Origin: Branchiostoma floridae
Lineage: Eukaryota > Chordata > Leptocardii > Amphioxiformes > Branchiostomatidae
Length of the DNA: 64,000 bases
Assembly: GCF_000003815.2 (NCBI RefSeq)
Contig: NC_049986.1
Span: forward strand, 17,984,993-18,048,992
Direction: 5' to 3'
Shown: positions 48,877 to 63,761 of the stretch, in pieces
Layout: each line of letters begins with the position of its first letter
How positions within the stretch are numbered: position 1 is the first letter of the stretch
Program-made: the position numbers and the translations under genes
The notes under the pieces: model-generated
Databases searched by the model: none
The model's input: the letters and a program-made list of their open reading frames with translations, nothing else
Told to the model about the DNA's origin: nothing

Positions 48877-51800
48877 TCACAGGAGAGTGACCTGCTCAAG
48901 GTGGTCCCCAGAAATGCTGGAGAAATGTTCATTTGACTCCGTCAATGCAGATGCTGTAGTTGTCTTGCTGAAGAGTGGTGGTACTTCCCTAACAGCTTCA
49001 CTGGTCCAGACCTAATGAAAAAACAATAATCAAATTCAAAAAATCAAAGAATCCACTAATCAAGTACTACAAAAAAAGCTACCATTAACCTTACCATTAA
49101 CCTCATGCTGTGATTGCAACAATTAGGAGATGACAGACTTCATTTCCTCAATACTTTCTGGTTCTTCAAATCCCACAAATTCGCACACGCACAGATAAAC
49201 AGAAGGATTTCTTACTACTTTCTGGCCTTCTACTTTCTGACACACACACACACACAGACTACATTTGTACACACATACACACAAACACACACTACACACA
49301 CAAAAAAACAAAGGCAAGATTTAAAACAATGCTACACTCCCTTGAGGTATAGCGACTGTGTATAGCATCTTACCTGATCATGCCGTGTCCATTTCAGCAC
49401 AGTACACTGTTCCCCCAGGCTCCCCGCACAGCTGAGGATCACTGTGTCCTCCTGGTCACCACTGCACAAAACACAGTACAAGGGTGTTACAGCCAACTTC
49501 CGAACAATCTCTAACTTACCATGTCTTAGATTATCCCGTGTCTAGTGACTCATTGGCCAACAAGACATCTCCACTCAGAGGAATTTGGGGCTAACTAGAT
49601 AGAATAAATCCAAATAGACGCTTTATTGACAAGACAAGTGACTTTCATATAGTCGGCTATAAACTACAAAACAGGGTTACAGAATAGATTTTAAGATTTT
49701 GTACTAAGTAAGCAATATAGGACAATATTAGAAGTAAAACATACCAAACTACCACCAGGGCTCTGATAGGGCGATCTGATACTCTCGTCTTGCTCTTCAG
49801 TCTCAAGTCATACTGGAAGGTCAGGTCCTCCCTGCTGGAGAATACTGAACTTTCCCTGGAAGCTTCCACACTCAGCCGATCTTTACTTTCCCCTGTGTAG
49901 TAGTCAGCAACTGCCTGGTCCCCTAGTGGAACTGGCGGCGGCGGCTCGTTGTCCGGTTCATCGATGATGCACCATGACCCCCGGCTAGAGTTCATGCTCT
50001 TGTTGCGCATGTGGTAGGGGATTGCTGACATTTCTGTACATGTACCTCTCTCTGGTTTCCCATCAGAATCCGTGTGACTGTCCAATGACTGCTGAGGGGA
50101 TGCCATCTCAGCAGACCGTAGCATCATGTAGCTTTGCTGAACGTCTACTACAGGCTGTTTCTGGGGAGGCGGATGACTAGAATCTGGCTTACTGTCAATC
50201 AGACCAGACCACAGGTCCATCAGGGACGACCGTCGAACATTGTTCTGCACAGGCTCTGCGACATTTGTTTCAGACTCTAGAACACTAGTGCTCTTTCTTC
50301 TTCCTTCAGGGCTTCTCCTGAAGCTGTCCTGTTGGTCGCACTGGTTGACGTGGTTGGACTGAGTCGTGCTGAAGCTCACAGGTCCTTTGTGTTTGAAACT
50401 ACTGACTGGAATGTTGTCACAGAAGAAGTCATCCTCGTTGTCTTCAGATCCAAGGGGTGTCATTTCCAGTGGTACTTGCTCAATGGTTGACATCCTCCGT
50501 GTAGTGGATGGGACAACAGGAACGCTAAGGGTGTCATCCTTACTGCTGATGCCATTGGGGACATCTGGTGAGTCATCTTGCTCGGTTTCAAGCGTGAACT
50601 GGAGGAAGCCATTGTCATTTGTTCCATACCCACTAGAAGTGGAGTAAGTTCTACTGTTCCTCTGGGAAGACAGTGAGGACTCTGCCTCTGAGAATGCCTG
50701 GCTCAGCCTGTGGGCATTCGTATTTACTTCCTTTGCTGGACTCAAAGACCCATTGGACTCGACAGTCAAGTTTGCTTCCTTCAGAAGCTGCGCTAGAACA
50801 CTGGATTCTTCAGTCGTCGGTTCCCTATATATTGCACTTGATTCATCACAGGCAACACTTTCTCTGATTACATCATCAACTTGCGTGCACTCAGCGTCAC
50901 CATTTCTGCTTATCTCATCACTTTGTGAGTGGTTGACATCCACTTTGGTGATGGAGGTACCATCCACCGTCCACCCACTGACTGCCTCACTTCCTAACTC
51001 CAGATCCTCAGACATGCTGTTCAACAACTCTTCGTTTGAGAAGCGTCTTGTGCTGGAGATTCGCCGTCTAGCGAGGCTCGCTTGGGAAATCGTCTCGTCG
51101 CCAAGGCGCTGCGAGCCGGGCTGATCCTGGGCAGGTGTGACCTCAGGGTCGATGACATCGTAAACAATGACATCTCCTGCACCTGTCCCTACCCACAATT
51201 CCTTCCTGTAGGAGAGGATTGCTGTGACCCTTGATGCATTGAAATGGCATTCCTCCCACTGGAAAAGGAGAAAATACAAATAACTGAGTGTATTGCTCAA
51301 ACCTGAAATGAAAAAGTTCCTTTCTATCTTAATTTCTGAGCATATACATCAACACTATACATAAGACACATTTGATATTAAGCCTTCAGAAAGTATAGAG
51401 CAATGGAAAAGCAAACTTGTTATTTGTCTGTAACAGTTACATGTATTTGTATACAATGGCCATGCAAATGCCCAGTCCACATGCACCTTTAGTAAAGGCC
51501 TAACAGGCTTGAAGAGAAAGGGGCAGCATGGGGCCACAAAGGAGTCCAGTCTAAGCTGTTGATGTGATAAGATCTCTAACAAAATCACTCACAGGGTTTT
51601 ACTTTTAGGAGTAGGGAAGTTTTAATATCTTCTAAGCTTACACTGTGTTACAGCCCATAGCACTGACTAATAGTCTAACAGCACTATGTACTATGACATG
51701 CAAGTTTCAGACTCTGATTTCTGTAACCACTACATACATGTAAGCTTTGATTACTGCAGGTAAAAGACAGAGCCTATTGAGAGAGAGCAAACAGCTTTCC

Positions 51801-54800
51801 CAGCTAGACCTGGAGAGGAATAGAGTTGAGCATGAAAAACTAGTAAGAACAGATCTATACACTGAGTGTAATTTAGATCAGGTACTTTACAACATGCACC
51901 CTTAGCAAAATACAGCAAAGACTTGTATGGTCATGTTACGTTGCATTGACCCTTAAGTTATCCTTCTACTACATGGTACTGTTGAAAGGAGAAAAACATC
52001 TCACACCTGAAAAGTGCAACCCTCAACCAAGAGGTAATGGTTACTAACAAACTACATGTATTACACAATTACTTATTCTGTTGTTTCACTACAAGATATA
52101 ATGAGCTCCACAAAATGAGACAGACAATGTAATCATTTTTGGTAGCATAAGAGACTGAGGTACATGGGAAAAACTGAACCCAGTCTCTTCAGTTTCATCC
52201 TCTGCTGACATTTTCCACCTACATTTTTGGATGTGGTGTGGGAGTTGGTGCTGACATCATACAGGATGGAGCATGTGAAGGTCTGCGTGTCCCACAGCTC
52301 AACAATGGACGATCCCCGGATGGACACCCACACACCCTGCTCCCCCCTCACCAGGTGGGAGATGTGGTCGCTTCCATCCAGGGAGACTTGGAACACCACC
52401 AGGGAATCCAGGGAGCTGGGATGTACAGTGAATCATTATGAAACAAACAATACCAGAGGGTTTGCTGTAGTATGTTAGAATGCTGTTAGAATGCTGCCAG
52501 AAGGCCCACCATTATCAAGTTTTTGTTTTCCCAGTCTCTATCCTGACCTACCAAATATCATACAGATACATCCACATCTTTTTGAGTTATGCTGTCCACA
52601 AACCCATAGACTCACACCCAAACAGCACCATGAAATATAAATTTAAGTCCCAACTAAGCTTTGCATCTTGTGTATCTTACTATCTGGATATCTACCCTTA
52701 ATTGACAACTAAAAGACTGTTAGAGTTGAGAAAATAACCTACTTAGCATTGAGCACAGCCACCCTGTTGCCACATGTGCACCACAGTTGGTCTTCCACCA
52801 AGGCCACACAGGTGACCGGGTGTCTGCCTACTGGGATGTACACCGGCTCTGTCACTGGACCCCGCACACCCAAGTCCTGGACAAACACAAGAAATGTTTA
52901 TGGTAATTATCTGCTATCTAACACTGTGCAACAAACTGAATGATAAGTGGAAGAAGGAGTGGGCTTTGTAGAAGTTTTCAGACATTCTCCATGTGGCAGG
53001 TGGTGGGTGAAACATTAAAAAAACATATGTTAAGCACACCCAAGTCCTGAAGAGACACAAGCAATGTTAATTCATAATAGTTATACCCAGTGCAACAGCC
53101 AAGTGGGTAGAGTGTTTGCCATGTATTCAAATTGAGAGAGACAATACAGGAATGCACTGTCTCCCAATAGGACTAACTGTTTTATTTCAGCACAATTGAG
53201 AACTTAATTCTTGGAGATTTTGCATTTGAACAAGGAAATATTCATTGTAAAATAGAATACTTATGTGTCGATGATTAAAATTTCCATCTTGAAGATCTAC
53301 TTGCTCACAAAGTATTACTTTTTAAAAGATCAAAACATCAAATAAAGCACCTTGGTTTTTTTTACTGTATCTGTCCATGGTGCTGAAATGCCATCCACTG
53401 GTTGTTATGTTATAATCATCTGGTGTATTTTGCCAGCAAGTAGGTACCCAAATTATGAGTAATGCGGCTGTTTAACGTGGTCGAGGCACCTCCTTGAGCA
53501 AGGGACCCGTTTTACGTCCCTCCCGGAAGACAATTTAGTAGAAAGCTTCGTGAGGCTACAGCAATCCAGACTTCCTTGGTTATGTTATGGATGCCCCTGT
53601 AGCTAAACTGGTAGCAGCCTCACAACTGAGCTCCTGGTTCTAACTAGTTAGTAAAGTCTTGTCTTGAAATGGTGGTCCACTGTTTGCCTCTCATCAGTTA
53701 AAAGGAATAAGATGAAGCAGGGATCAAAATACTTTTCTCATGGTATATGCAAAAGTGCAAGTTGGCAAAAATTTTATGTGCACTTTGAAAAATTTACATG
53801 CAAAATACAACTTATGACCAGTGACGATCCCCATTAGCCAAAAAAAGGCACCAGGTATTTTCAACATGCAGGATTGCAAGTTCAGAATATTTTTACGTGC
53901 AAATCTCGAAAACTACGTGCAAATTGCAAGTTAAGTATGTGTATTTCGAACCCTGTTAAGGCAGAACATTTTGCTCAAACGTACCTCCATAACAGCAATA
54001 TGCCCATCAGCCAGGGCAGCATACACGTGTGTGTTTGAGGGAGGAACTGCCAGATCCAGCACAGTGTCGTTCAGCTTCATTCTCCACACCTCCAGTCTGA
54101 ACAAGCAGAAAAGTAAAATAAAACAGAATGGAAAAAATACTTCTTACTACTGCACCAACTGCAATTTAAGCTATGCATCAACAAAAAACATAACACATAA
54201 TATAGTATGCACAGTATGCAAATTGAATGCAAAAAATATTATGTCAAAACATATATGAGAAAGTGAAAGAATAAAGCAATTGATAGGAAAAGATTTTCCA
54301 GTTTGAACATGAATTACATGTACAAGGAAAATGAAATAGAAATAATGAAAAAGAATAAAGCAGAATGCATAATGCAAATATCTTACAACTGCAAAAAACG
54401 GCCAATAACCAAAATAAAATTGTGATTTATACATAGAAGTGGTACAAGTACATGCATAATAATGACATTTTAATGTAAACAGTGCATACATACTTTGAGG
54501 CTGTGCTGTAAGCATACAGATGTGAGTTCAACGTGCCGACCAGCATAGTTCCACCACTCTCCAACTGGAGGCCATGGCAGCACATCACACGGGAGTCAAC
54601 CTGCAGGACACCATTAAGCATCTTGCATTTACTATATACTAGTATTTTAATGGATAAACTAAATCTTTAGTGCCTTATACTCACATCTAAACAATCATAT
54701 CATCTGATAGTATGTCATCACCAGCCAAATTACAATGGACCGTTCTCGTTGAACACCATAAGCCCGGTCCCTGACAGAGGGTTCTATTTGCTTGTTCATT

Positions 54801-57800
54801 ACGGTGTTTGACAGCAATGGTCTATTCCACTATTCATCAAACAGCAACAGACAGTCTTAATGTGTTTTTTCTCAAGGGATAATGAAGAGTGATTATAGAC
54901 AAAGGAAATACAATGTATGTTGAAGTCCTTATTTACCAAGATGTCCATATTCTGCATGGTGCAGGTGCCTGCGTCCACCTCACAGATCTCTGCACTGTTG
55001 TGTTCACAGGCACACATCCAGGCTTTACCTGTGGTGAGCAAAATATACACTGTGTATAGATTTATGTTTAGATGTGATTGGGACAATTGACCCTCTACCA
55101 GCTTTGCCCAGTTAACTCAGCCCAATGCACCTCTCACTTAAACATGTGGATTCACAGACAACAACACCAATTAACCTTCAGCACACAGAAGAACCCGTTT
55201 GGCTACCAATTTTTTATAAGATTAGGAATCTATGAGATTAGGAAGCAGGAAGAAGTTGATGCTTTTCCAGCCCCAACTGTCCATTAAAAGCTAGAGCTAT
55301 CATCACCAGACAAGTGTTACCAGGACTTACAACACCTGTATTGGGTGTAAGATTCCAAAACTGTGCTGTTGTACAGTAACAGGCATAAGGCACCTGAAAT
55401 GGTTACATCTGAGGTTTAGACATTGTATCTTTGTATGTTTTTTTGGTGTTACATACAAGCAACATACACAATATTAATCTAATGGTATCATTAATATATA
55501 TATTAATGCCATTACATGATCATAATATTTTGAAAACCAGCCTGACCATGTGTAGTGGCAGCGGCACACTCCACCATCAGCTGACCCTCTCCCATGGACC
55601 GTTCCAGCTGGCGCATCTGATCCAGCTGAAAAAAAGTTGATAATATATTATTATAGAAAAACAGGAAGATTCAGATTACAGTCATTCAGATCTGGTGCAA
55701 ACCATCAACACACAAATGGACAGTGTTAACTTCAATGATTAAGAACTGGCTTACTCCGATTTAACATTCATTGCCCTGACAACAAAAATTCTGAGCAACT
55801 TTTGGACTTAAGAAAGGTTGATTTTATTTCACTATGGAGCAATACACCATGAGAGGAAACGACAGGAGGGAGAGGCCATGTTTCCCGTCTCAACTTGCGT
55901 ATCATTACAAGTGTATATGCGGAATTCAAGGGCACAACACTGAAAGAAAGGAGTCCTCTCTCCAATAGTCTGCTTGAAGAGGCTTTGGGGTGCTTTATTA
56001 TTGAAAATTCTGCCACCAGAGTTAAAATGTCTACTGACTGAATCAACACCATCACCAAATTAACACTGTAAGACAACAGAGGTTACAGGAGACCAAGGAA
56101 ATGGTTGGAATGTGTTAGGACCAAGGAAATCCTGGTTGGAATGAAGGAGAGACATCAAAATGTGCGGTCTAACTAGGGTGAGCCCGCTGGACACAGCCGT
56201 GTAGAAGCGCAGTGTAAAGACTAGACAACTGCTGCCAACCCATGTCAGGGACCCCAGCAGCAGTGCACGTATAATCAAATACTGGATATTACTAAAATTC
56301 TGATCCAAAACATGACTGACCAGTCTGTCTCTCTCATCCTCAGCCTCCCTGTACTTCTCCTGCCTTGAGAAGGAGTCCTTGATGGTCTGTCTGTAGTACG
56401 CCTGCTTGGTCTGGATGTTGGCTCGCCGAGGGAACGGCTGGAGACCTTCAAAAGCAATCTGGACGTCAAGAAAACATTTTTGAAAATTAGTGTCATATAG
56501 CCAGATGTCATTGACGAGCCAGAAGTAACCATTCTACATTGGTTGTGATGTTGCAATATCATAGAAGTACCACAGGTGGTGAATTATGAATCTCAAGTGG
56601 TTAGTTACTACAATAACTGACTCATTTGACCATGTTAATGAGGCTTCAGAGAGTTAACAGCATGAGTCGTAAATGTTTCAAGCTGTGATACTTTCTCTGT
56701 AAAGAAAGCATTCACATTTAAGTAAAACTAGATTTTCATCTAACTTACATTTATTTGTTATTTTATTCAGTTACCAGTCTCAAAGTCCTTCCACAGCAAC
56801 AGCCCTTTCCTCTAACTGCCAAACTATAGAACTCACTTGGTGACAACTGTTTCCTCCTATATACAATTTTCAAGCCTTCAACACCAATGTTCACCGCTAT
56901 CTCCTTGCATAATAATTTCCACGACTATCAAATTATTTCATTGCCCAGATGTGGTCAAATGGCTTTGCATAAACAAACATTTTCAAAAAGTCTTCAAGTT
57001 TCAGCAGTCACTTTGTATCCGATAACCTCTGTACCTGGTCTACTGCATGTAAGTGTGCCTCCTGCCAGGATTTAAGGGCTTGGTAGTCAGTGTTTGATTA
57101 TGTCATCTTTTATTAGTCTTAATCTGTATCCATTGTATTTTTATGTCGGGGCGAGGGATAGCAAAGGTGCCACTTCTTGTTCTCTTGCCCCTTCTACTTA
57201 GTTTTGTAAGCAGACTCACCAGAGCCAGCCCCTCCACATCATACGTGACCTTGGCCATGGACTTCATGTACTTCATGACGGACAGGCTGTCCTCCCGGGA
57301 CAGGATGGCCTCCTCGTGAAGCTTTAGGATGGCCAGCGAGAACCTGAACAGCACCTTTGGACCTTCCACAAGAAAACAGTCCCAGATTCGCAGCAGAGTC
57401 TGTGGAAAGTAGAGTTCTAGGTTTACTGAGTTGTACATTAAAGCCTGATCACACTCTTTTTCTACTTCAACAGTATGAGAAAGAAGATACATTGTACATC
57501 TCTATATGAGTAACAGCTTCAGGATGGCCTGGGAGAACATGAACAGGACCTTTGGACCTTCCACGAGAAAACAGTCCCAGATTCGCAGCAGAGTCTGGTG
57601 GGAGTAGAGAAAAGACAGGGTTTACTGAGTTGTACATTTAAGAATGGCTTCCTCATGCAGCTTTGGGATGGCCAGGGAGAACCGGAAAAGGGCCTTTGGA
57701 CCTTCTACGAGAAAACAGTCCCAGATTTGCAACAGAGTCTGTGGGAAAGAAGTGAACTGGGTTTACTGAGTTGTACATTTAGGCCTAAATACACTCTGAG

Positions 57801-60800
57801 GTTTATCTGCTTCAACAGTATGACCAAGAAAAAAGAGACAGGAATGCATTGTCGCTCTTTAGGAGTAACTGTTTTCATGTTTTCAGCACAAATGGGATCA
57901 TGATCCATGAAGGTACCGTATATTCTCGAATAAAGTACGCACTTTTTTAACTTTTCAAAATTGAAAAGGTGCTACAAGTTGGGGTGCGTACTTTATTTGA
58001 GGTTACTGCACAGATAAATGGTAAGAAAAGCCTAAAATAAAGCAAGGTGGAGCTACACTTCTAGTAATGTTCCAAAGCATACACATTGTTGTTGTCTTGA
58101 AGTTGTCTAAACATGAAACAAAGAAATTGTCTTAACATGATTTACATATTAACAGTGGCATTTGCATACAATCCTTTTGAGTTAGTGACTTTGACTTGTA
58201 CAATTGGTTTTGCCTGATTTCTTCTACCAGTTCTCAGTGATTTTTACAATTTGCAGCAGGCAATTCACAAGTTTATAGAGACAATGACAGTGTAAACCCA
58301 GGTTATTTTATGCAAAATGACCTGGGGAAAACATCATAAATTCGAATTTATTTAGTTAAAGGCCTGTTCAAAACTGGTGGAGAAGGGGTGCGTACTTTAT
58401 TTGAGTTTTTCCATTTTACCTTTCAGTCCCAAAGATCTGTCTAAGACTTGTCCAAAATCAGGGGTGCATACTTTAATTGGGGTGCGTACTTTATTCGAGA
58501 ATATACGGTACTCATTTGAACTTCATTATAGAATTCCCTAGGTGTCAATGGCAGCAAGTCTCATCCTTTCCTTCTTTAAGATCTACTTACTCACAAAGTA
58601 GTACTTTTTAAAAGACCAAAACATAGTCAAAAATGTCTAAAGCCTTAAATAAAGCCCCATGGCTATGAACTATATCTGTCCAAAGTACTGAAATGCAATC
58701 CGCTGCTGTAGAGAAGAGAAAGGAGAGTAGACATGCCATATATAGAGGAGTGGCTTTCCATTTTTTTTTTCTCATCCAAAAACCAATGGATCAAATAGGT
58801 GTGACCTAAAACTCACCTCAAATGGCACAGAATCAAAGAAGAGAGCAAGGAACCAGTTGAGGGTGACGGTAGACAGGAGGATACCCAGCACCTCCAGATG
58901 GTCACGCAGGCGAGGCATTATCTCAGAGACCAGCTCCTTTAACACCTCCTGGTCTGCTTGGGCGCCCACCAGGTTCTTGTCGAAATAGTTGATACTGAAG
59001 TACTTCTCTGTCACAGCTACCAGGAACCTGTATTAGAGTTTTCAAATTGTGTTAGCTATGAGAATCATCTTGTAGAAGATAGTGCTGATGGTGATTCTTT
59101 TAGATGATAGTACTGATTCCTAAATCACTGCACTTACAGCTAAATCTTGAATAAATCAAAATATGGTTATTTGCTACATCTGTCCATAGTGCTGAAATGC
59201 CATCCACTGGTTTGTTATGTTACACTAAACAAAACTGGTATGTTTGGCCATTCACTGGTTATGCAAAACAATAAAAAACAAAACCATAGCATGTCCAGGC
59301 CAAAAGATACTGTAACAGAAATTAGCGGTACCAAAGTCAGCTGCCAGAGGACATAAAATCAACCTTGACTTTTGTGTTCACAATTTATCTGGAAACTCTT
59401 AAGTTATTGATGAAACTTAAGCTACTAAAGAAACTCACAGACATACAAACCAAATGTAATAAGTCCATTTTTCATGGAGAGTATGTCGAGAAGGACAACC
59501 TCAAGCCAACCGTTCACACTTGTGCCACATCTTTAGAAAAGACGCTGGAGCCATGTGGCTTCCTTGGTGTTATGGGCTCAAATGAGCACTATGCACCTGG
59601 CCTATAAAAGCAAGGACATGCTGTACTATGCTCATTCGCCCATAACACTGAGGAAGCCACACAGCGAAACATGTTTGTTGTGTGTCGGTTCGAATAAAGT
59701 TCCTAAACGGGGAACATGCGGCTTCAGCATCTTTTCTGAAGATGTGGCTGAAGTGTGAACAGTTGGCTTGAGGTTGTCCTTCTCCACATACTCCATTTTT
59801 CATGGAGGTAACAAAAAGACAAAAGTAAAACTGACCAGAAAGCGTCCTCCTCCTCCAGGAAGAGTAGACTCATGCCCACCATGAAGTTCAGCCCCTGGCA
59901 GTACCCGATGTTGGGGTTGTGGAGACAGTACGCCTGCAGAATGTTTCTCAATTTGCTGATCTGGACATGCAAGGGGCACAGAAAACATTTAATCACAAGC
60001 TGTAAACATCACCAAAATCAATGAACAAAACAATCATAAACCTTTCAGAAAAATGAAACTATTATTAAAGGCATTAACAAAACTACCTCGCAAGATATTT
60101 TAGAAAATCTGTGTAGCCTTCACTGGACTTTATGCAAGCTTTTCCCCCGCAACATCGTATACACATCCTGTGAATCAATTCATAAAATGTAAAAGTAAAG
60201 GTTGGTTAAGGTACTCCCCCCGCCTTCTTTTAGGCTGTAGCGATAGGGGGGTATAATCCACTGCATTGGAAAGTATAGCTCATCCGTTGCCCTATTCCTA
60301 CTCCCAACTGAAGTGCCCATTTTTACACTTGGGTGTAGTGAGAAAGGTTGTGTACAGTATATTTCCCAAGGACAAAATATCTAGTCAGAAAGGCCCAGAA
60401 TTACACCCATGTTCTCCACACCAGGCCATTTGGCCATTTGATGCCACATAAATAAAATGTGGGTTGATCAAACCAAACAAAAAGAAGGATGTTTCCTTAC
60501 CCCATCAGCGTCCAGCTGGTTGAAGTGCTCGTTACATGGCATGGTCCTGAGGAGGTCTAACTCTATCTGCTTCTTGTGCTGCGACACTATCTGTCAGGGG
60601 ATATGGAAATAAAAGAGTTGATGAAGGTTACACAAAATTCTAGGTATTAAGATATGCCAAAAAGCAGTTACTCAAGCAACAGGAAATGATTTTTGAAATA
60701 GACGGTTTATTTCTTTCCTCCTGAGAAAGGTGAAAACCAGAAGAGTGTTGAACCTTGCTGTTATCTCCTTTTCTAATTGTTGCAGGGTTTTCTCTTTTTG

Positions 60801-63761
60801 CTACAATGGTTCTTTCACCTGATGATACATGTTACAATTCTTGATGATTATATGGATGACATCCCTGGGAACCCCAAAACCTGATGTGACTGAATTAAAA
60901 AAAAGTTTGGCAAAAAAGTTGCCTTCATTATGAAATCTAAGTGGTAAGGAAGGTTGACAAATGATCTAACACTTTTTGAAATGGTCCAAAATTGATGCGA
61001 GTGCGCATGTCATCTATATAACCGAATCAACATGGCCTAACCAAAAAGTCCACAAGCATTTTCTTGCAAAACTGCAAAGCTTTTGCAGTATGTAAAATAA
61101 ACCTACCACAGACTGCTCTGACAATGTCACCAGGTCATCATAATACCCTGGGCCCTGAAATGAAAAAAACAAGAACTTCAACCTTCAATCTCTCTAAGGA
61201 TCAAATGTAATCCTCTGTGAGTCAAATACTTTGAATACTACAAATTTCTTTTTCCAATTTACAAAAGCAAAGGCTCTCTAACCTTACAGTCAGTCAAATC
61301 TCACATGTCTTAAAATAGTCTTTAAGTAGTACCTTTTGTTCCTCGATGTCCTGTGTTTGTATGTGGACAAACTTCTGCCACACCTCGCTGCGGTACTGGT
61401 CAGGGATACCGTCCCTCACCAACACCTTCAACTCTTTCTGTAAAACAAAGTGATAAAATCCTAGAACTTACAAAAACTGGAGACACAAAGTGTTTGAATA
61501 TGAACATTCAACATTTTAAAACTATTCTATATTTTTTTTTGCTTTGAAGTTCGTACTGGGCTTTCTTTATCTTTATTCATCCAAACTGAGACTTTTAGAG
61601 ATTATCAGAAAATGAAAACAAAAACAGAAATTCAATGTAAAAGTTTTAAAAGAATTGCACAGCTACTGGTAGAAGAGGGAGACACACTGTACTGATACTG
61701 ACACATCTACTGCAACTAATTTAGAAGAAACGAGATTTGCTGCTTACAGTTTTCTGCAGGTCCTGCCTGTGTGCCTTGAGATAATCAGTCCACTGGGTCT
61801 GGTGCTTTTCATAACTCTGGAGAAAAACACACAGAAAAAATCATAATCATACATTGTATAACACACCAGACTTACGTTGATGAAGGTAGAAATGTAAGTC
61901 ACACTGACAAAAGATAACGAATGTTATCTGAAAACATCTGACCTTTTCCAAAATCATATCCAATTGCTTCAAGAGACATTGCTATTTGGCAAATATTATC
62001 TGAAAAATCTGACTGTTTCAAAAATAATCTCCTATTTAGTGTACACAGCACACTGTTTCCATGTACATGTAATTCTACCTCCGGAATTCAACTACATGCA
62101 TGTTGCTGGATACAACCTAATTTTACATCTTCTATTGCCCCACAAGTTTCTGTATGACAAGAGATTATAACCTTACAGGACAGTATATTAAATTCAGTTG
62201 GTCAATTTTATAAGGCAACCAGTGTTCACACTGTGTGTATACACTCACATTTTCAGACAACAGCTAAAAAAGGCACTGCTTGTTGCTGGTGGTGGTTTAC
62301 CTTTATTTGTGACCTGTAATGTTGTGTGAGCTGCCTGCAGATGTAGTGGAGCTGGATAGCCTCATTGTGCAGGGTGTGGATGAAACCATAACTGTCGGTG
62401 TGAGTGGCAACCTTGCCTGACCTGAAAAGTCAGATGTACACATATGGAAAATGAAAATTTTTATATTACAAAGTCACTAAGACTGTCAGCATATATCTAA
62501 ACATATTTTCTTTGACATGGGCAATTGGTTCAAAACCAAACTCTTTCAAAAGACTGATTTCTAACTTATTTGACAAAAGGTTATACACAACAAAAGATCA
62601 ATTTCTAACTTGCCTGTCAAATGTTGGTAGTGTTGGGTTAATGGTTCTCGCTTCTTCTAACATGGCTTCCAACCTTTCATAGTGCTAAAGGTGCAGAGAA
62701 AAACATTATAATAGTACATTAACATAAATATGTTGCATTATTACATAACATTACTAAGTACATTATTACATAACATTACTAAGTGCAATGAGTCTATTCT
62801 CAAGTCCTGCATCATTGTCGTAATATACTGCAGTCCTAGACAAGATAGGACATTGCATTTTCCATTCTGCATACTTAAAAGCAAGCAGAATAGAAATGCT
62901 TGGGCAAATAAAATAAGTATGCAACATTGAAAATCCAGATTCTGCACATATGCAAAGACTTTTACATTACGGCTGATATTTCATTTAGTTCACCAAAGTG
63001 ATATCCGAATCCAATGTGATCTAAAAGTACTAGAAGATAAAATTGAATGATTCCTGATCACCTTGTCCCCTCCATATGCCCTGATCTCCATACAGTCAAA
63101 CGGGTCCTCGGGTGGGAGGTGTATGCACCCCTGCAGCAGGTACACGTAGTCTCTCTTATACTCATCCAGCTGGGCTTCCAGACTACGGATCTTCCTGCAA
63201 TTACAAAAATAATTTCATCAAGTTAGTAGAACATATTAGAATATTAGAGTCTCTTCTCCTCTTTTCTCTTCCACAGAACTTCTGACTGGAATGCTGCTAC
63301 ATGATATAGCAGCTAGCAAAAAGCATCACTCCTGTCAGAATCTTTGAGGAAGAGAAAGCAGATGAGATTTTATGAGAGTTTGTGAAAAAGAAATCTTCAA
63401 TATCCTCCTTCTACAATGGTTGCTGAGGACAACCAGAGAAATGGTTCACTCATAGAGTTAGTGAATTTTACACGTTCAACCTGTTTTTTCCACTTTGATG
63501 TTACAGTACTAGACTATTAATTGCTCTACCATTTCATTCGAGCAATGCTGAAGAAATTGAAGTTTGAGGTTTGATCAATCTTGTCAGGAACATTCTACTC
63601 ACGCATGCTGTTGTCGAGATTTGAGCTGCTCCTGTTGCCGTAGGCGTGACAATTTGTGTACCTCCCCGTTTAGGAAAGTGTTCTGGTCCTGCAGGATGCG
63701 ACACTTCTCCTGCATCAGGGCAGTGTACTTCTGCAGCTGGGCTGTCTCCTCACTGGACATA
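48877..63761 (-). CDS. TBC1D2-like RabGAP with C-terminal WD40-like propeller (5' end outside window)
   Basis: Exons: 63761-63603, 63194-63062, 62684-62614, 62421-62301, 61816-61748, 61437-61333, 61154-61107, 60590-60501, 59960-59836, 59027-58817, 57399-57220, 56458-56321, 55625-55547, 55028-54937, 54600-54494, 54096-53985, 52876-52743, 52415-52223, 51258-49745, 49461-49374, 49011-48877. All keep frame, about 1,300 residues, open at the 5' side. Residue numbers count from the first in-window codon. Coiled coil about 1-75. TBC domain about 185-460, with IELDLLR (arginine finger, IxxDxxR) and GYCQGLN (glutamine finger), so probably active in speeding Rab GTP hydrolysis. A linker helix (FSRQEKYREAEDERDRL) follows, then WD40-like blades from about 490. 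A serine-rich, probably disordered insert fills most of the 1,514-nt exon, and the last blade is VILSCAGSLGEQCTVLKW. The TBC part resembles TBC1D2/2B; the propeller (ELWVGTGAGDVIVYD) resembles LRRK2 and ARHGEF10. Target Rab unknown. Confidence 0.93.
53130..53412. repeat. Dispersed repeat, intact copy
   Basis: Contains caggaatgcactgtctccca, aactgttttatttcagcaca, agatctacttgctcacaaag and gtgctgaaatgccatccact. Other copies: 57830-58700 (split by the 593-bp MITE) and a 3' fragment at about 59155-59225. All lie in introns of the TBC gene. Confidence 0.8.
53718..53955. mobile_element. Element with CAGGGATCAAAATA / TATTTCGAACCCTG ends
   Basis: Inverted ends resemble those at 14668-15035. The interior is rich in acgtgcaaat/gcaagtt words. 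Lies in a TBC-gene intron. Confidence 0.6.
57511..57740 (-). pseudogene. Two truncated tandem copies of the TBC-domain exon
   Basis: In the intron just upstream (in gene direction) of the functional exon 57399-57220 lie two partial copies. Copy 2 (about 57511-57594) reads TLLRIWDCFLVEGPKVLF and then diverges to a stop. Copy 3 (about 57645-57739) reads TLLQIWDCFLVEGPKALF and continues into HEEAIL. Both keep an acceptor AG before ACTCTG but lack the exon's 3' half and its donor. Flanking intron sequence (gtttactgagttgtacatt) is duplicated with each copy, so these are DNA tandem duplications, not retrocopies. Probably non-functional relics. Confidence 0.85.
57830..58705. repeat. Dispersed repeat, copy interrupted by MITE
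   Basis: The left part (caggaatgcattgtcgctct, gtaactgttttcatgttttcagcac) and right part (agatctacttactcacaaag, ctgaaatgcaatccgctg) match 53130-53412 in order, with the 593-bp MITE between them. Confidence 0.82.
57916..58508. mobile_element. 593-bp mariner-type MITE, TA target duplication
   Basis: Perfect terminal inverted repeats ccgtatattctcgaataaag... and ...ctttattcgagaatatacgg, flanked by TA on both sides. Inner copies of gtgcgtactttatt. It is inserted inside an older dispersed repeat and carries no transposase. Confidence 0.92.
59476..59794. mobile_element. 319-bp hairpin MITE with 9-bp target duplication
   Basis: Arms ggagagtatgtcgagaaggacaacc...ccgttcacactt and aagtgtgaacagttggcttg...ccacatactcc. 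The direct duplication atttttcat lies at 59467-59475 and 59795-59803. Inner inverted words gttatgggctcaaatgagc / gctcattcgcccataac. It ends about 40 bp from TBC exon 59836-59960. Confidence 0.93.
60233..60446 (-). mobile_element. SINE copy in TBC-gene intron
   Basis: Shares cccaactgaagtgcccattt, gtgtagtgagaaaggttgtgtacagtat and a degenerate tRNA-like end (gccatttgatgcca) with 44020-44292. Confidence 0.7.
60647..60715. mobile_element. Fragment of the 2.2-kb hairpin family
   Basis: Single arm (aaaaagcagttactcaagca) in an intron of the TBC gene. A further diverged fragment lies at about 61905-62015. Confidence 0.65.

Follow-up and report, generated by a model that had tools for sequence, protein, structure and literature searches.

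A TBC1D2 (Armus)-type RabGAP gene of Branchiostoma floridae that probably carries a C-terminal propeller of the LRRK2/ARHGEF10/JIP class

A gene of the amphioxus Branchiostoma floridae probably encodes a RabGAP of TBC1D2 (Armus) type with a C-terminal propeller of the LRRK2/ARHGEF10/JIP class, that is, a GAP that would be docked through its propeller and regulated through a long loop; we put the probability of this reading at about 70%. The gene lies in a stretch of 64,000 nucleotides (C8:17984993-18048992, hereafter the window), and the genome that was searched comprises 513 Mb in 431 contigs. Among the matches listed, which cover open-access titles and the starts of abstracts, no protein that combines a TBC domain with an LRRK-type propeller was found; automatic genome annotations may list it.

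Results

Gene model

Stop-to-stop reading frames and splice sites together yielded 21 exons on the minus strand, running from 63761 to 48877 (Table 1). An earlier note on this DNA had claimed 21 exons spliced in frame, and we confirmed this at exactly 48877-63761 on the minus strand, with the frame kept across 20/20 exon junctions. The spliced product has 1300 residues, with a coiled coil, a RabGAP-TBC domain and a propeller in this order, and contains all of the phrases quoted in the note (IELDLLR, GYCQGLN, IVELWDTQT, ELWVGTGAGDVIVYD and VILSCAGS...VLKW). Read in either of its alternative frames, the spliced sequence is interrupted by stops (79 in one frame and 59 in the other). Nineteen introns are of the GT-AG type and one, intron 3, is of the GC-AG type; the donor of this GC-AG pair (window 62612-62613) is otherwise near-consensus (CAG/GCAAGT).

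The propeller half of the model was also assessed independently of homology. Codon scores in frame are higher than in both shifted forward frames for exons 13-18, exon 19 and exons 20-21, and none of 2000 intron windows reaches the score of any of these three sets. On the reverse strand, one frame of exons 20-21 slightly exceeds their coding frame (0.099 vs 0.071). Exon 19 contains 504 codons without a stop, for which the chance expectation is ~2e-11.

Table 1. Exons and neighbouring features of the gene, in window positions.
Feature	Position	Strand	Content and evidence
Exon 1	63603..63761	-	Coiled coil (QNTFLNGEVHKLSRLR); same exon in second copy
Exon 2	63062..63194	-	Coiled coil; second-copy comparison
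Exon 3	62614..62684	-	Followed by the GC-AG intron
Exon 4	62301..62421	-	DSYGF motif, aligned with YDIYGF of the working human TBC1D2B sequence
Exon 5	61748..61816	-	Second-copy comparison
Exon 6	61333..61437	-	TBC domain begins; Pfam
Exon 7	61107..61154	-	TBC; second-copy comparison
Exon 8	60501..60590	-	TBC; arginine finger IELDLLR (R250)
Exon 9	59836..59960	-	TBC; glutamine finger GYCQG (Q287)
Exon 10	58817..59027	-	TBC; Pfam
Exon 11	57220..57399	-	TBC domain, final part; Pfam
Exon 12	56321..56458	-	Post-TBC stretch, presumed helix (IAFEGLQPFPRR); aligned with the end of the working TBC1D2B sequence
Exon 13	55547..55625	-	Presumed helix end and propeller match start (residue 498)
Exon 14	54937..55028	-	Propeller; Pfam and codon scores
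Exon 15	54494..54600	-	Propeller; Pfam and codon scores
Exon 16	53985..54096	-	Propeller; Pfam and codon scores
Exon 17	52743..52876	-	Propeller; Pfam and codon scores
Exon 18	52223..52415	-	Propeller (IVELWDTQT); Pfam, PDB sequence match
Exon 19	49745..51258	-	Propeller strand ELWVGTGAGDVIVYD, 445-residue Ser-rich loop, propeller re-entry
Exon 20	49374..49461	-	Presumed last propeller blade; Pfam only to ...TVIL, VLKW by eye
Exon 21	48877..49011	-	Short Ser/Thr-rich C-terminal tail, TGA stop
Candidate polyadenylation signal AATAAA	48705..48710	-	~170 bases beyond stop
Partial exon 11 copy in intron 10	57515..57594	-	74/80 bases
Second partial exon 11 copy in intron 10	57641..57738	-	84/98 bases

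A RabGAP of TBC1D2 type

Pfam places a RabGAP-TBC domain (PF00566) at residues 197-410 of the window product (3.7e-55), and both catalytic fingers, IxxDxxR and YCQG, are present (R250 and Q287). Together with the Beta-prop_LRRK2 match described below, this bears out the prediction of a coiled coil, a catalytically complete TBC domain and a C-terminal propeller in one product. Against a working human TBC1D2B sequence that was not taken from a database record, the window protein gives a single alignment of 488 columns, 175 of which are identical (36%), that runs from the coiled-coil motif QNxFLNxE through the YGF motif and the TBC domain to the post-TBC stretch; in the TBC part, identity to this working sequence is 41.0%. 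TBC1D2/Armus and TBC1D2B resemble the gene in their PH domain, in both motifs, in the two-finger TBC domain and in the post-TBC stretch. Unlike these proteins of the TBC1D2 (Armus) family, which end there, the window protein continues past the TBC domain into the propeller (Pfam) with its 445-residue loop. According to PMC6176412, Armus (TBC1D2) acts as a GAP for Rab7 and has LC3 and Rac1 as binding partners. In lipid overlays its PH domain recognises PI(3)P and PI(4)P, and its TBC domain employs an arginine and a glutamine finger.

A second copy and the upstream PH exons

A genome search with the TBC half revealed that the 5' half of the gene occurs a second time, at 11.28-11.29 Mb of contig C8 on the opposite strand. 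This second copy (C8:11279179-11291023) corresponds to the first 16 exons (A-I and 1-7), and its similarity to the window gene stops just past exon 7; a scaffold gap of 100 N follows ~240 bases further on. Since homology ends after exon 7, only the window gene shows the propeller half. Exons 1-7 are of equal length in the two copies and their DNA is 96.5% identical (681/706 bases); in the introns, 88.8% of the aligned bases agree when gaps are not counted. All 235/235 residues encoded by exons 1-7 are identical (dN 0.0, dS 0.196), which supports the limits of these exons and shows that they are under purifying selection. The second copy could be either a diverged allele that was misplaced or placed twice, or a true duplicate. 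It also contains a partial extra exon 2 (L027:808-863; first 56 bases, 98% identical) just 5' of exon 2.

Upstream of exon 1, the second copy has nine additional exons (A-I) that add 366 residues in frame, and exons A-C encode a PH domain (PF00169, 2.9e-9). The gene is therefore incomplete within the window, as its first exon there is internal in the second copy and the PH domain lies upstream of it. The 30 residues of exon A and those of exon F are present, and identical, upstream of the window gene; the remaining seven exons (B-E and G-I) were not found in that upstream stretch, which is partly N, and are taken from the second copy only. We infer a full protein of 1666 residues encoded by 30 exons, with the order PH, coiled coil, TBC and propeller.

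One gene or two

The TBC and propeller halves might instead belong to two neighbouring genes, a TBC1D2-type gene ending near exon 12 and a propeller gene starting near exon 13. Intron 12, which separates the halves, has 695 bases and contains two AATAAA motifs, and exon 12, if unspliced, reads to a stop at 56060-56062. The two motifs make an additional short form possible; such motifs carry little weight in this region, as AATAAA or ATTAAA occurs at 22 sites in 47.5-63.8 kb, including the candidate signal past the final stop. Two genes are, moreover, hard to reconcile with the phase-0 join of exons 12 and 13 through ordinary splice sites, with the scant room for a promoter, and with exon 13 itself, whose 79 bases cover both the last part of the presumed post-TBC helix and residue 498, where the propeller match begins. 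We consider the split into two genes highly improbable, and a single transcript for TBC domain and propeller is the predicted arrangement.

A predicted propeller intermediate between LRRK2 and WD40_2

In the full product, Pfam matches Beta-prop_LRRK2 (PF23748) at residues 498-757 (5.5e-24) and WD40_2 (PF19056) at residues 586-757 (1.8e-18). We take WD40_2 to be the ARHGEF10, ARHGEF17 and JIP3/4 type; ARHGEF10 carries a propeller of the LRRK2/ARHGEF10/JIP class. With the loop removed, Beta-prop_LRRK2 matches at 1.6e-25 (90.3 bits vs a cut-off of 26.9) over profile positions 12-334 of 359, a single collinear match that likens it to the LRRK2 propeller, and WD40_2 matches at 5.1e-20 (72.1 bits vs a cut-off of 22.5), covering only profile positions 135-300 of 488. 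As a yardstick, an LRRK2-type propeller on contig C5 scored 206.6 bits with Beta-prop_LRRK2 and 46.1 bits with WD40_2. We read the C5 gene as probably LRRK2 rather than another LRRK, from its score and its C-terminus.

The two halves of the window propeller behave differently. The lower blades alone score 53.2 bits with Beta-prop_LRRK2 vs 65.8 bits with WD40_2, which is their best model. The upper half alone has no match to either model at E 0.1 in Pfam, its best match being Beta-prop_ACSF4 at 0.0018, under the family cut-off; in context, it raises the LRRK2 score from 53.2 bits for the lower blades to 90.3 bits for the whole. Recognition of the upper half as LRRK2-like thus depends on the rest of the domain.

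A sequence search of the PDB with a 280-residue query returned LRRK2 chains that match residues 15-274 in one stretch, and these long matches are to LRRK2 chains or to chains named only serine/threonine kinase. With a lower-half query, the best chain (named only serine/threonine kinase) reached E 3.7e-4 and the first LRRK2-named chain E 1.6e-3, with coverage of query residues 66-145 only. PQQ-type propellers, both designed and natural (for example Cake and Scone), also stand among the first PDB matches by way of a single repeated stretch at about residues 72-130, and were rejected as repeat-driven and not a sign of kinship.

The claim of an LRRK2/ARHGEF10-like propeller therefore stands as far as the Pfam and PDB sequence searches go, but the scores do not fit a plain LRRK2 type. 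Similarly, the suggestion that the propeller phrases follow the order of the LRRK2 blades held in part: the first two phrases align with LRRK2, but for VILSCAGS...VLKW the PDB match stops before the phrase and the Pfam match at its VIL. In exon 20 the Beta-prop_LRRK2 match reaches no further than ...TVIL, so that VLKW is judged to be the final strand by eye. The propeller fold and the blade count are predictions.

Outside the propeller, no kinase, Roc-COR or RhoGEF domain was found in the window product by Pfam. These absences set it apart from LRRK2 (kinase and Roc-COR) and from the RhoGEF proteins of the WD40_2 class; it further differs from LRRK2 in the long loop before the last blade, and it matches the WD40_2 model only in part. 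By inspection, the tail past the last blade of the window protein is short, Ser/Thr-rich and apparently without an LRRK-like C-terminal helix, and the C5 gene has a helix-like C-terminal stretch. A helix of this kind packs on the kinase in LRRK1, as it does in LRRK2 (PMC10412621). When PF23748 was run against the genome, it matched two exons, both on C5, and missed the propeller exons of the window itself, so it is too insensitive to count paralogs among intron-split genes. Judging by sequence, the propeller is probably a member of the broader LRRK2/ARHGEF10/JIP class; it stands between LRRK2 and WD40_2 and does not appear to qualify clearly as an LRRK2 propeller.

The loop before the last blade comprises 445 residues (758-1202), of which 16.4% are serine, and follows the strand ELWVGTGAGDVIVYD. 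It contains five RRx[ST] sites, compared with a mean of 0.35 in shuffled sequences, and 0/5000 shuffles reach five. Sites of this form are suited to basophilic, AGC-type kinases. LC3-interacting motifs in the 445-residue loop are not above shuffles.

A canonical TBC1D2-type gene in the same genome

A canonical TBC1D2-type gene was located on contig C4 (~25.464-25.476 Mb) with the working human TBC1D2B sequence as query. Like the window gene it has PH, coiled-coil and TBC exons, but unlike it has no propeller: its last exon ends in ...IREDFTSSYEQKTTDFLSDDES-stop right after the TBC part (...FLSDDES-stop), an end like that of TBC1D2B, and no propeller match at E 0.01 was found in the 18.6 kb beyond with the window protein, propeller included, as query. 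That TBC1D2/2B proteins lack a propeller, as had been stated, is in agreement with this gene of the same genome. Since the canonical form is present, we conclude that the fusion sits in a divergent TBC1D2-type paralog.

How old this paralog is bears on whether the PH-TBC-propeller architecture could be ancestral to deuterostomes or bilaterians, as an old TBC1D2 sister gene that was lost in vertebrates, a loss that the note had suggested. Over the TBC domain region, identity between the window gene and the canonical C4 gene is 42.1%, lower than the 57.7% between the C4 gene and the working human TBC1D2B sequence; the C4 row was joined from readable exons and may lack a piece. The TBC-part introns of the window gene and the C4 gene share, by eye, no position and phase, with several lying within ~1-5 residues of each other. 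Both observations are in line with an old origin; however, a fast lineage-specific duplicate would give the same picture. Trees of five or six TBC rows, in which long branches meet, did not settle the branch order: support was 88/93 for the two human rows and 40/0 for the branch that sets the window gene outside the other three, so the long branch of the window gene was not placed. We regard ancestry of the architecture as a tentative possibility, somewhat on the doubtful side.

Repeats in and around the TBC exons

Both partial copies of exon 11 in intron 10 (Table 1) start at the first base of the exon and are without its second half. On another contig (C11:13549280-13550554, L035), eleven matches to one TBC segment (~profile 171-203) lie mostly ~104 bases apart, apparently as a tandem array in another TBC gene; this array has no blastn match to the window exon 11 region at E 1e-3. 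Intron 10 also contains perfect 30-base inverted repeats, 539 bases apart, that resemble a small DNA transposon (window 57913-58511), and in intron 9 inverted arms of 74 bases (91%) flank a nested 24-base inverted repeat, a candidate miniature element (window 59479-59793).

Discussion

We propose that the PH domain and the coiled coil would bring the protein to endosomal membranes, where the TBC domain would inactivate a Rab (Rab7 by kinship) via its arginine and glutamine fingers. The propeller would dock the protein to partners on that endosomal membrane, and phosphorylation of the RRx[S/T] sites of the loop by AGC-type kinases would adjust docking or activity. As both fingers (R250 and Q287) are present, we expect the TBC domain to act as in Armus, with a Rab of late endosomes as its substrate; Rab7 is the putative target by kinship at ~42% identity, and the docking role of the propeller and the control by kinases through the loop are likewise predicted roles. 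The protein may also share docking partners with LRRK2, as the note suggested.

Several links between such propellers and Rab proteins have been described. LRRK1 and LRRK2 phosphorylate Rabs (PMC7886321), and ARHGEF10 acts in the Rab6-to-Rab8 relay (PMC10041652). In mouse cells, LRRK1 switches on TBC1D2-dependent Rab7 inactivation (PMC5348726), and phosphorylation of Armus by LRRK1 is named in PMC6176412. PMC13304329 mentions neither TBC nor RabGAP. A TBC1D2 protein with such a propeller in one chain fits the LRRK1-TBC1D2-Rab7 network.

It is tempting to go further and to suppose that an LRRK gene supplied the propeller, so that the fusion records the LRRK1-TBC1D2 partnership (a Rosetta-stone fusion). 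The best full-length Pfam match is indeed Beta-prop_LRRK2 and the long PDB matches are to LRRK2 or to chains named only serine/threonine kinase, to which the role of LRRK1 in TBC1D2-dependent Rab7 inactivation can be added; but the lower blades prefer WD40_2, the upper half alone matches neither model, the LRRK C-terminal helix seems absent by inspection, and the exon spans look unlike those of the C5 LRRK2-type gene, as judged there from open frames only. Therefore, we consider an LRRK origin unlikely. A stronger form would hold that amphioxus kept an old RabGAP lineage in which a TBC1D2-type Rab7 GAP and an LRRK1/2 propeller unite the mammalian two-protein partnership in one chain, with the propeller binding LRRK partners and the loop mimicking the phosphorylation of TBC1D2 by LRRK1. 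The mixed propeller scores and the apparent lack of the LRRK helix weigh against this form, which we hold to be quite unlikely.

Based on our findings, we favour a TBC1D2-type RabGAP with a propeller of the wider LRRK2/ARHGEF10/JIP class. A fusion of this kind beside a propeller-less TBC1D2-type gene may hint at which proteins work together. If real at the transcript level, it would tie a poorly understood class of propellers, that of LRRK2 and ARHGEF10, to Rab inactivation, would offer a small test protein for the binding partners of such propellers, and would add an evolutionary clue to the pathway that has been reported to lead from LRRK1 through TBC1D2 to Rab7.
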